Source: Lyngbya sp. HA4199-MV5
GTDB lineage: Bacteria; Cyanobacteriota; Cyanobacteriia; Leptolyngbyales; Leptolyngbyaceae
Assembly: GCA_019359375.1 (NCBI GenBank)
Contig: JAHHHL010000041.1
Coordinates: 1-59,535, forward strand
Reading direction: 5' to 3'
Length of the DNA stretch: 59,535 nt
A program made the translations under genes and the position numbers. Every line of letters starts with the position of its first letter. Position 1 is the first letter of the stretch. The notes beneath the pieces are model-generated. The model was not told the DNA's origin, did no database searches, and saw only the letters and a list, made by a program, of their open reading frames with translations. Of the stretch, positions 47,219-50,308 are shown in pieces.

Positions 47219-47794
47219 TCACCGTTCATCGTAACGGTGCAACAGGGCAGTTATAAAATTGACCGCTGACAGCGCCACTGGAGGTTTAGCTGCATGGGGT
47301 GTCAGCCACCAGCCATGCGCCGTTTGGGGCGATCGCCAAAGCTCAAGATGCGCCACACCAGGGTCAGCGTAGAAACTGTCCTCGCCTCCCCCCAGCAAGG
47401 CTGAACTCCAATGGGTAAACCAGTCGTGACTGAGACGATACACTGGGAAGCTGCCTATAAGCGGTACGCCCCAACCATCGATCGTCAGCACAGCCTTAAC
47501 ACTTCCCCCCAGGTATTCCCAGGCAACGGCTGCACTTATGGCACCCACAACACCTGCACTGAACCCAATGAATACTAACGGAGGCACCGCCCTTAGATCC
47601 GGATCATCGCGGCTGGTTTGCTCATGAAGAAACCGCAGCACATGCCATCCCGCATAGGCAGGATAGCGCTCAGCCGGAAACACCAGCAAAGACTCTGGCT
47701 GTAACGCCACCCCCCCGGATGCGTCCCGCACACTCTGAATAAACTGCTGCGTTAATTGGCGATCGTGCATACCAGGACAAATGACAATCCTCAT
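47219..47794 (-). CDS. Small alpha/beta-hydrolase-like protein
   Basis: 191 residues. MRIVICPGMHD forms a first strand and loop, and FIGFSAGVVGA is a nucleophile elbow (GxSxG with S about 96); AHGWWLTPHA could supply the catalytic histidine. It is shorter than typical hydrolases and lacks an obvious lid. Cyanobacteria have similar unassigned proteins. An esterase or thioesterase role is possible but unproved. It lies upstream of the MFS gene on the same strand with 185 bases between. Confidence 0.6.
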   Translation of the reverse strand: MRIVICPGMHDRQLTQQFIQSVRDASGGVALQPESLLVFPAERYPAYAGWHVLRFLHEQTSRDDPDLRAVPPLVFIGFSAGVVGAISAAVAWEYLGGSVKAVLTIDGWGVPLIGSFPVYRLSHDWFTHWSSALLGGGEDSFYADPGVAHLELWRSPQTAHGWWLTPHAAKPPVALSAVNFITALLHRYDER

Positions 47795-48114
47795 CCGTTT
47801 AGCTTTTAGCCTTCAGTTCAGCAATTGGCGGTCAGCGGTCAGCGGTCAGCTTGTTAGCCTTTAGCCTTCTGCCTGCTTCTAAAAACTAACAACCAACAAC
47901 TAACAACTTTCCTAGCCTTCATCCTTCACTCCTCACCCCTCAAGCATCTTAAGCATTTTCAAACACATTTCTGCCCTATCCCCCTGGATAGGATGTTACC
48001 CTAGACGCTAATGGGTAATGCTTCTGAGCCGTATCCTTGTCGTAACAGGCGATCGAGATGGCTTGAGTGAGCGATCGTTTCCCAGCTTAGTCCATTCATG
48101 TTGAGGCAGTATCA
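47795..48114. other. Repeat tract and regulatory region upstream of the chelatase gene
   Basis: Begins with GCGGTCA heptamers (x4), then TAGCCTT, CAACAAC/TAACAAC and CTCACCC units to about 47945. The remaining 170 bases contain an inverted repeat (47975-47992) and the promoter and leader of the His-tailed chelatase gene. No ORF. Confidence 0.65.
47975..47992. promoter_or_regulatory. C-tract inverted repeat, possible Ni/Co/Cu-sensor operator
   Basis: CCTATCC-CCCT-GGATAGG: a perfect 7-bp inverted repeat whose C-run between TAT and ATA resembles operators of CsoR/RcnR/InrS-type metal sensors. It is 123 bases upstream of the gene encoding a chelatase with a His-rich tail. Assignment rests on form and context only. 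Confidence 0.4.
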
Positions 48115-49305
48115 GTGGTCGCTACTCCTGAAAAACTCCAGCCCTTAGTTAACGAGTCTAACAACGAGTCCAACGCCCAGGATCGGGTAGCCGTTCTCTT
48201 AATGGGCTACGGCGAAGTAGAAAGCTATGAAGACTTTGCCAACTACAACGAGCAAGCGCTGAATCTTCTAACGGCAAAGTTTGCGCCTGTCCCGACCTGG
48301 GTGTATCCGCCGCTGGCAAAGCTGTTAGCCGCGTTTGACCTGCACGAATGGAGTCATCAGCACGACCATTTCATTTCGCCCCATAATGCGATTTTTGAGC
48401 GTCAGCGGGCTGGCGTAGAGCAGTCTTTACAAGAGCGCTGGGGCGATCGTGTGAAGGTCTTCAAAGCCTTCAACTTTTGTGCTCCCTTCTTGCCAGAACA
48501 GGTTTTAGAGGACGTTAAAGCGCGAGGGTTTGACAAGATTCTGATTTATCCGCTTCTGGTGGTCGATTCCATTTTCACCAGCGGCATTGCGGTGGAGCAG
48601 GTCAACAAAGCGCTGACGAAGCTGGCGGATGGCACCGAGCACTGGGTCAAAGGCACGCGCTACATCCCATCGTTTTACAACGAGCCTGAGTATATCGATC
48701 TGCTTGCCGACCTGGTAGAAGATAAGATCAAAACTGACCTGGCTGTGGCGCATCTTCCCTCCCAAACGGGCATTGTGCTGATGAATCATGGCTGCCCCCA
48801 CAAAGCGAAAGGCTTTACGTCTGGAATTGATGAGAGTCAGGCATTGTACGATCGCGTCCGCGAGAAGTTGATCTACCGCTATCCCCTGACCTCGGTGGGT
48901 TGGCTGAATCACCAAACGCCGCTCATCGAATGGACGCAACCAAATGCTGAACTCGCTGCCAGGAACTTGATTGATCTGGGTGCGACGGCTCTCATCTTCA
49001 TGCCGATCGGTTTTGCCACCGAAAACCACGAAACCTTGCTAGATGTAGACCACATCATCCATACCCTGCGTCGCAAGCATCCTGAAGTAACTTATGTGCA
49101 GATGGAATGCGTTAACGATCGACCAGACTTCCTCAAAATGGTTGCAGAATGGGCGCATCCACAAATCGAGGCGCTGCTGGCAGAGCAGGCGCTAACGGTG
49201 AATCCCAGCCTTGCCCCCCACAGCCATGAGCATCACAACGGTCACTCACACGGAGATTCGCACGGGCATGGGCACTCGCACGGGCATGGGCACCATCATC
49301 ATTAG
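48115..49305 (+). CDS. Ferrochelatase-like protein with a C-terminal histidine-rich tail
   Basis: 396 residues of the ferrochelatase/CbiX chelatase fold. AVLLMGYGEVESYEDFANY is the N-terminal strand; NHGCPHKAKG (H225) stands at the first active-site His, and ENHETLLDVD (E303-D312) at the second-domain His/Glu site, close to the ferrochelatase HxETL motif. The last 28 residues (369-396) hold 15 histidines alternating with Gly and Ser, a metal-binding tail seen in Ni or Co chaperones. It is more divergent than housekeeping HemH and may insert Ni or Co, or supply Fe. GTG start at 48115; an upstream C-tract operator and a downstream terminator frame a single-gene unit. Confidence 0.75.
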   Translation: MVATPEKLQPLVNESNNESNAQDRVAVLLMGYGEVESYEDFANYNEQALNLLTAKFAPVPTWVYPPLAKLLAAFDLHEWSHQHDHFISPHNAIFERQRAGVEQSLQERWGDRVKVFKAFNFCAPFLPEQVLEDVKARGFDKILIYPLLVVDSIFTSGIAVEQVNKALTKLADGTEHWVKGTRYIPSFYNEPEYIDLLADLVEDKIKTDLAVAHLPSQTGIVLMNHGCPHKAKGFTSGIDESQALYDRVREKLIYRYPLTSVGWLNHQTPLIEWTQPNAELAARNLIDLGATALIFMPIGFATENHETLLDVDHIIHTLRRKHPEVTYVQMECVNDRPDFLKMVAEWAHPQIEALLAEQALTVNPSLAPHSHEHHNGHSHGDSHGHGHSHGHGHHHH

Positions 49306-49342
49306 ATAAGCTCGAAAACCATCCTTGAGCTAATCACATCGT

Positions 49343-49384
49343 TGTGTTGCTGGATGCGATCGCGCCCAGCAACACATTGTTTTT
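49343..49384 (+). terminator. Rho-independent terminator of the chelatase gene
   Basis: TGTGTTGCTGG (49343-49353) and CCAGCAACACA (49366-49376) form a perfect 11-bp stem around a loop containing GCGATCGC, followed by TTGTTTTT. It lies 38 bases after the stop codon. Confidence 0.85.
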
Positions 49385-49439
49385 GCATTCCGTTCACCGT
49401 TCAGTACCATAGAAATACCTGCTGCGAGCCACCTTGCTA

Positions 49440-49564
49440 GGGGCTGTCATCAATTACTACTACACATTACTTTTAGCAAGGGTTCCAGCCCCTAGCTTCA
49501 TGTCTTGGACGGGCGCGATCATGCTGATACCGAAAGGTTTCGGAGCTGAATTGATGACGCGCCC
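49440..49564. mobile_element. 125-bp MITE (element C), copy 2, inverted
   Basis: Ends GGGGCTGTCATCAATT and AATTGATGACGCGCCC, flanked by TA. Same length as copies at 31077 and 59110, in the opposite orientation. It sits between the chelatase terminator and Uma2, and a spurious ORF (49434-49691) runs through it. Confidence 0.75.
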
Positions 49565-49591
49565 TAGTGAAACCTCTATTGGTGAAAAGCG

Positions 49592-50308
49592 ATGTCCCTA
49601 CTTGAACTTCCACCCACCCAGGCGGAACTTCCCTACGACGATGGTGTCCCGATGGAAAGTGCGCGACACAAAACCCAGATGGACTTGCTGATCGACGCGC
49701 TCATCCCCTGGTTGGCTCAGCGAGACGATGGCTTTGTCGGGGGCAGTATGTTTGTCTATTACAGTCTGGCGCAGGTACGCAACCAGGACTTTAAAGGACC
49801 AGACTTTTTTGCCGTGTTGGGAGTCCCTAAAGAGAAACGCAAAAGTTGGGTCGTGTGGGAAGAAGGGAAAGCACCCGATGTCGTGATTGAGTTGCTGTCA
49901 GACAGTACCGCTGCCGCCGACAAAACGAAGAAAAAGCTCATCTATCAAGAGCAAATGCGAGTGCCAGAATACTTCTGGTACGACCCCTTTAACCCGAGTG
50001 ACTGGGCTGGTTTTGCGATGCAGCAAAATGGGTATCAACCCCTTGTTCTCAATGATCGCGATCAGTTGCTGAGTGTCTCCTTGGGCTTAGCCCTACAGCG
50101 TTGGCAGGGAACATACAAAGGCATTGATGCGACCTGGTTGCGCTGGGCAACGGTAGAAGGAGACCTGTTGCCAACGCCTGAAGAACAGGAACATCAACGA
50201 GCCGAACAGGAACATCAACAAGCAGAGCTGGAACGTCAACGAGCCGAACAGGAACGCCAACGAGCCGAACAGGAACGTCAACGAGCGGATGGTGCAGAGG
50301 AGCAGTGA
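49592..50308 (+). CDS. Uma2-family endonuclease-like protein, ends at an in-frame TGA
   Basis: 238 residues of the PD-(D/E)xK-like Uma2 (DUF820) family, very abundant in cyanobacteria and of unknown biological role. DFFAVLGVPKEKRKSWVVWE and APDVVIELLSDST carry the nuclease core; a coiled tail of EQERQRA heptads (50173-50290) follows, coded by a 21-bp tandem repeat. After the TGA (50306-50308) the same frame continues 37 codons (LQTARNLLVEGMTMEQVARL, then TGLNAEAIAPLL) to a stop at 50420-50422. That looks like the normal Uma2 C-terminus (an EQVARLTGL-type helix), so the TGA probably truncates the protein. Confidence 0.82.
   Translation: MSLLELPPTQAELPYDDGVPMESARHKTQMDLLIDALIPWLAQRDDGFVGGSMFVYYSLAQVRNQDFKGPDFFAVLGVPKEKRKSWVVWEEGKAPDVVIELLSDSTAAADKTKKKLIYQEQMRVPEYFWYDPFNPSDWAGFAMQQNGYQPLVLNDRDQLLSVSLGLALQRWQGTYKGIDATWLRWATVEGDLLPTPEEQEHQRAEQEHQQAELERQRAEQERQRAEQERQRADGAEEQ

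Follow-up and report, generated by a model that had tools for sequence, protein, structure and literature searches.

The DNA analyzed here, called the window below, is a stretch of 59,535 nucleotides from the cyanobacterium Lyngbya sp. HA4199-MV5. ORF reading and Pfam placed a ferrochelatase-like gene at positions 48115–49305 of its forward strand, with a GTG start, encoding a protein of 396 aa with a His-rich C-terminus. A likely ribosome-binding site, GAGG (forward strand, 48103–48106), was read directly and was kept in a six-sequence alignment. Folding energy indicated a rho-independent-type terminator with a T-rich tail behind the gene (forward strand, 49343–49384), in which a hairpin at 49343–49376, followed by TTGTTTTT, reached −22.9 kcal/mol (z −3.8); this hairpin was not among the matches of a simple consensus terminator scan. 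The locus is therefore a single gene with its own terminator, the self-contained unit that the original prediction, made from the letters alone, had described. A divergent upstream gene (reverse strand, 47219–47794) encodes a protein of 190 aa with no Pfam match. When the loci of the best 80 of 450 relatives were compared, proteins resembling this neighbor by eye were the commonest, lying upstream and divergent in 37 of the 80, and the gene neighborhoods of these relatives pointed to no pathway. The intergenic DNA preceding the chelatase-like gene contains a 16-base TTAGCCTTTAGCCTTC-type repeat in three copies (47799–47927).

The encoded protein matched the Pfam ferrochelatase profile (PF00762) with 137.6 bits against a cut-off of 27, over profile positions 2–314 of 317, and scored 89 bits with the NCBIfam hemH model (TIGR00109), below the equivalog cut-off of 124.6. 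Because of this low hemH score, it is a divergent ferrochelatase, as had been claimed. It also gave a weak match to the CbiX profile of Pfam. Alignment to ferrochelatases identified a catalytic-type histidine, His225, in an NHGCP motif (forward strand, 48787–48789), and a catalytic-type glutamate, Glu306, in an ENHE motif (forward strand, 49030–49032), at the positions that we take to be the catalytic residues of ferrochelatases. Both motifs were present in 77/77 full-length orthologs from a 291-genome draw of the phylum, and Cys227, beside the catalytic histidine, was a cysteine in all 77 of them. Across 42 aligned sequences, much of the core was invariant, including H225, E306, Y32, C122, C227, and C332. 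In an AlphaFold2 model (pLDDT 73.1, pTM 0.72), the product has the ferrochelatase (type II chelatase) fold; a Foldseek search with that model returned ferrochelatases at ranks 1–44, followed by CbiK and SirB, with a top match at an E-value of 1.6e−13 and a TM score of 0.75 by target length. The C-terminal tail (residues 369–396; forward strand, 49219–49302) has 15 histidines in 28 residues, exactly the count first given, and is predicted to be disordered, with a pLDDT below 50 at residues 366–396.

The genome collection offered 456 candidate stretches, 450 of which encode relatives of this protein; the best 80 of the 450 were analyzed in detail, and all 80 are cyanobacterial by title or genus name. 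At least five histidines occurred in the last 30 residues of 79/79 full-length proteins among these best 80, the remaining relative (L082) being truncated and dropped from the tail count. In the 291-genome draw, 77 genomes, including that of the window, carried a full-length ortholog, and the same tail measure held for 77/77. This set was obtained from 82 rows by removing two fragments (G278 and G194), a split gene (G079), and the divergent paralogs in G104 and as a second copy in G179. The latter two are 47–49% identical and have neither the His tail nor the operator described below. A place of equal length and identity was located on a Nostoc sp. UHCC 0926 plasmid. Divergent paralogs of this kind, in Nostoc-type genomes and once on a plasmid, are those of L222, L223, and L344:8001–9065. 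In one further genome, G306, the chelatase-like reading frame is split into two ORFs, and a CbiM gene lies near and upstream of it on the opposite strand (L283:1–1241 and 1557–2966). Many cyanobacteria have, in sum, a second ferrochelatase-like enzyme with a His tail, which would be expected to bind metal.

Upstream of the gene, the inverted repeat CCTATCC-CCCT-GGATAGG named in the original prediction is present on the forward strand at 47975–47992, and this was the single exact match to CCTATCC-N2to6-GGATAGG in the 6.9-Mb genome. As an inverted repeat alone, it does not go beyond chance, because the window contains 14 perfect 7-bp repeats with spacers of 2–8 (two with a spacer of 4, versus about 3.6 expected). 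In another register, it overlaps a predicted InrS operator, ATCCCC-CTGGA-TAGGAT (ATCCCCCTGGATAGGAT; forward strand, 47978–47994), an imperfect copy that matches ATCCCC-N5-GGGGAT at only 10 of 12 positions. This 17-bp operator, with the consensus derived from the same ortholog loci as were counted, occurred at 10/12 or better within 260 bp upstream of 68 of the best 80 of 450 relatives versus 23 of 2293 control windows, and in its perfect form upstream of 41 of the 80 versus none of the 2293 equally sized control windows. With a position weight matrix (PWM) covering the operator plus the −10 element and trained on 54 sites of other loci, the window operator scored 32.0 versus a control maximum of 11.3 (1356 windows), and it was the top site of the window, the next scoring 11.2. 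When the region was aligned with that of five close relatives, the stretch spanning the operator and the −10 element proved conserved, while its flanks diverged. A chance palindrome was ruled out by this alignment and by the conservation upstream of orthologs; conservation, in a register shifted from that of the inverted repeat, is what marks the site at 47978–47994 as real. The suggestion of a metal-sensor operator accordingly stands insofar as the region matches a conserved, InrS-linked site, but the conserved form is ATCCCC-N5-GGGGAT rather than the repeat with 7-bp arms; lack of conservation, which had been named as an argument against the idea, was not what the 68 of 80 loci revealed.

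An exact search for the operator in 20 relatives found 15 sites in nine genomes versus two for the reversed pattern; six lay by the chelatase-like gene, one lay by a DUF3120 gene, and eight lay elsewhere with no clear link, some of them inside ORFs. With two mismatches allowed, the genome of the window gave at least 233 forward matches, and the reversed pattern used as a control gave at least 296. By eye, the site of genus g27 is shifted far upstream or lies in the register of CCTATCC-CCCT-GGATAGG.

The operator is joined to a predicted extended −10 element, TG-T-TACCCT (forward strand, 47994–48002), recognized as TAnnnT at a fixed offset and having the last T of the operator in common with it. 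Promoters were compared in a set of 157 from both ortholog sets, 135 of which had a site of at least 10/12, leaving 128 that were non-redundant by a 40-base string. In 91/128 promoters, TAnnnT followed the site at one fixed offset, whereas no other offset between 17 and 44 had it in more than 17 promoters. An extended −10 element, TGnTAnnnT, was joined to the operator in 75/128. No −35 consensus was recognized, TTG never exceeding 9/128 across offsets −12 to 2, and a consensus promoter scan of positions 47790–49600 gave no sigma-70 match. Because the operator abuts the extended −10 element, a protein bound there would be expected to repress, and this placement at the chelatase-like gene therefore predicts repression and induction by nickel.

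A profile search found a single protein of the CsoR/RcnR family (PF02583) in the genome. Its closest solved relative is InrS of Synechocystis (5FMN, E-value 5.7e−45), and it retains the His-Cys-His-Cys fingerprint, the InrS pattern described in passages of PMC7055735 and PMC4235346. According to passages of the same two papers, InrS represses nrsD and leaves the DNA upon binding nickel. The surveys of the chelatase-like gene and of PF02583 were taken to cover the same 291-genome draw, as judged from shared genome handles. A PF02583 match was present in 70 of the 77 genomes that carry the gene (the copy in G247 being broken) and absent from the other seven. A site above the 99% PWM control level was found in 59/70 genomes with PF02583 versus 1/7 without (Fisher p = 3e−4, kinship ignored), and a site of at least 10/12 in 64/70 versus 3/7 (p = 0.004, kinship ignored); the seven genomes represent only three families and hence few independent losses. 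In three of these seven, all of genus g42, the site was decayed and still matched at 10/12. The correspondence is incomplete in other respects as well: 11 of the 70 genomes with a PF02583 match had no site above the PWM threshold, and some genomes have an InrS-type protein without the chelatase-like gene. Autoregulation of InrS was ruled out at the inrS locus of the window's own genome, where no site exceeded 9/12. Among 31 CsoR-family loci scanned, one had a 12/12 site, 51 bp before the start of a csoR-family gene in the distant relative G244.

The same operator was also found at NrsD-like and CbiM/NikM genes. In G257, a cyanobacterium with a small genome, the perfect site ATCCCCCTAGGGGGGAT (1398–1414) lies directly upstream of a gene for an NrsD-like exporter whose end is His-rich (L343:1398–2781, operator included); 11 bp separate the site from the first possible GTG (1426) and 32 bp from the first ATG (1447). 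G257 has an InrS-like protein, with no match to the chelatase-like gene among the matches listed. NrsD-like genes were found in only two of the 14 genomes searched, G257 and G089; the G089 copy is broken, had no site above 9/12, and is preceded by DNA that looked transposase-like by eye. A survey of CbiM covered 50 loci, 37 of them with a recognizable start, and found a site of at least 10/12 at 15 CbiM/NikM loci (14 distinct genes), all of the HIPDG type, one of which reads HLPDG. Such a site was present at 15 of 28 HIPDG-type loci and absent from 13, and it was found at 0/9 loci of the MHI(M/A)EG type. In 11 of the 14 NikM-type genes (L290, L293, L296, L303, L304, L308, L309, L313, L318, and L321–L325), the operator was followed, by eye, by TTGNNN; the difference from the chelatase-like gene, where it is joined to the −10 element, fits activation at NikM-type genes and repression at the chelatase-like gene. 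Passages of PMC7055735 report that InrS enhances the nik operon of Synechocystis. Together with the operator that NikM-type genes have in common with the chelatase-like gene, this report could suggest that InrS acts as an activator here too and that the protein is made when nickel is scarce. We regard this as very unlikely, given an operator joined to the −10 element in more than half of the promoters and the different arrangement at NikM-type genes.

Genes for DUF3120 membrane proteins carry the operator as well: that of the window's own genome (contig G000:C84; L109:1577–2329) at 11/12, that of G004 (L096) at 12/12, and those of L269–L272 (g168) at 11/12, two of the last four being confirmed as DUF3120 by Pfam and two being alike by eye. 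In L109 and L096, the operator lies in the divergent intergenic region between DUF3120 and uppP/BacA, and in L281, a DUF3120 gene is divergent to the ferrochelatase-like gene. With the operator part of the PWM, the site at DUF3120 in the window's genome scored 9.9 versus 23.0–25.5 at G257, G244, and G027. DUF3120 is a candidate nickel-induced transporter. In G016, a perfect site (L093:1501–1517) was seen just upstream of an ORF resembling by eye the alpha subunit of urease, a nickel enzyme; this may be chance.

InrS control of the chelatase-like gene is predicted because the site is conserved, the sole PF02583 protein of the genome is an InrS ortholog, the site and a PF02583 protein tend to occur together, and the same operator stands before NrsD-like and NikM genes. 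From this sequence evidence, we are confident in predicting that the gene is under InrS control, and it is very probably repressed by InrS and induced by nickel. In the proposed mechanism, apo-InrS would bind ATCCCC-N5-GGGGAT, which takes the place of the −35/−10 spacer, against the extended −10 element, and would exclude RNA polymerase. When cytosolic Ni(II) rises, InrS would take up nickel and leave the DNA, and the enzyme would be made. The product, a HemH paralog with a modeled ferrochelatase fold, would carry a tail expected to bind nickel; it may keep tetrapyrrole metallation correct at high nickel, with the tail serving as a nickel buffer. As a whole, this explanation, a nickel-excess response gene for an InrS-repressed chelatase with a nickel-binding tail, appears reasonably probable. 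Nickel binding by the protein is suggested by the His tail, and its nickel role rests only on that tail and the predicted regulator.

The role of the protein can be considered against the other chelatases of the genome. A profile search found two PF00762 genes, so that the possibility of this being the only ferrochelatase, which had been named as a potential counterargument along with a recommended search for a second hemH, was ruled out: the other gene encodes a canonical HemH (410.7 bits, 387 aa) with a CAB-like C-terminal segment containing EVWNGR, an instance of the ExxNxR motif named in passages of PMC8529089. The genome also encodes a separate CbiX, with two matches within one open frame, which rules out the His-tailed protein as a substitute for an absent CbiX/SirB. 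No ATCCCC-N5-GGGGAT-type site was found at the canonical hemH, so the two paralogs are probably regulated apart. This separate regulation, along with membership of the HemH family and shared catalytic residues, is what might be expected of a stand-by heme ferrochelatase that resists nickel and takes over iron insertion once nickel inhibits HemH. The His-tailed protein is only 28% identical to the HemH of the same genome and falls under the hemH equivalog cut-off, and we consider a stand-by role possible but rather doubtful. The annotation of these His-tailed paralogs as hemH is probably misleading.

A different role would be that of a nickel store or chaperone, in which the ferrochelatase domain would serve only as a scaffold, or persist as an inactive relic, while nickel is soaked up by the induced tail. 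The tail is found in every full-length ortholog of both sets (79/79 and 77/77), nickel-sensor control is predicted, and NrsD-like exporters likewise have a His-rich end. A scaffold would not need the catalytic motifs that all 77 orthologs retain or a largely invariant core, and the divergent paralog keeps the catalytic histidine and glutamate without any His tail; this role is therefore unlikely. The retention of the catalytic residues favors a working enzyme, and our tentative suggestion is that the protein may act as a type II chelatase protecting metal–tetrapyrrole chemistry in nickel excess, while its tail buffers nickel.

Such an enzyme could also be dedicated to nickel or to cobalt. Turned on by the nickel sensor and supplied by its His tail, it would place surplus nickel in a tetrapyrrole that serves as a sink or signal, or would strip wrongly inserted nickel from porphyrins or chlorophyll precursors. 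The type II fold, the invariant cysteine by the catalytic histidine, the predicted nickel-sensor control, and the weak CbiX match are in line with this idea. Against it, the neighboring genes indicate no pathway, and we know of no cyanobacterial nickel tetrapyrrole. Ferrochelatases also accept nickel in vitro, so no special nickel enzyme is needed, and we judge a dedicated nickel chelatase or dechelatase improbable.

Compared with known systems, the protein shares its fold, core length, and catalytic histidine and glutamate with HemH/CpfC, the class II chelatases of PF00762, but it differs in having no CAB tail and in having a His tail, an invariant cysteine by the catalytic histidine, and an operator of the nickel-sensor type. 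The CbiK, CbiX, SirB, and CfbA chelatases belong to the same superfamily, and CbiK and SirB came next after ferrochelatases in Foldseek; the protein is nearer to HemH, and the genome has its own CbiX. Some CbiX proteins have His-rich stretches. The cyanobacterial ferrochelatases without a CAB segment and with His-rich C-termini described in 2021 (PMC8529089) are very probably the same proteins; passages of that paper describe them as proteins that had been neither identified nor studied before, and the word "nickel" is absent from its main text. Among the titles, abstract openings, and passages covered in searches of the open-licence literature, none linked a His-tailed ferrochelatase to nickel or InrS. 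In Nostoc, alr4616, called hemH, rose 8.6-fold at low CO2, like metal-efflux clusters (passages of PMC7699953), and its level increases when a pkn22 mutant is exposed to peroxide (passages of PMC4518582); this gene may or may not be an ortholog.

The InrS regulon of Synechocystis includes nrsD and nik; the sensor has an ortholog here, and the operator stands before NrsD-like and NikM-like genes elsewhere, but searches of the open-licence literature found no report of a ferrochelatase among InrS targets. Passages of PMC4182526 (see also PMC4284471) describe a Synechocystis strain mutated in both inrS and nrsD as sensitive to all metals tested, and in those of PMC4182526, the authors infer InrS targets beyond nrsD, which they do not name. 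In genus g20 (G033, G089, G093, and G106), no match to the chelatase-like gene was found at an E-value of 1e−20. By eye, the InrS sequences of G089 and G106 are nearly the same as 5FMN, and from these two genomes, g20 looks like Synechocystis. Absence of the gene from these Synechocystis-like genomes may explain why it went unseen.

To our knowledge, a tetrapyrrole chelatase tied to a nickel sensor has not been proposed before. The predicted link would give a testable starting point for work on a conserved protein of cyanobacteria that has until now been treated as a spare ferrochelatase, and it brings with it a candidate InrS operator, ATCCCC-N5-GGGGAT, whose further predicted targets are NrsD-like, NikM-like, and DUF3120 genes.
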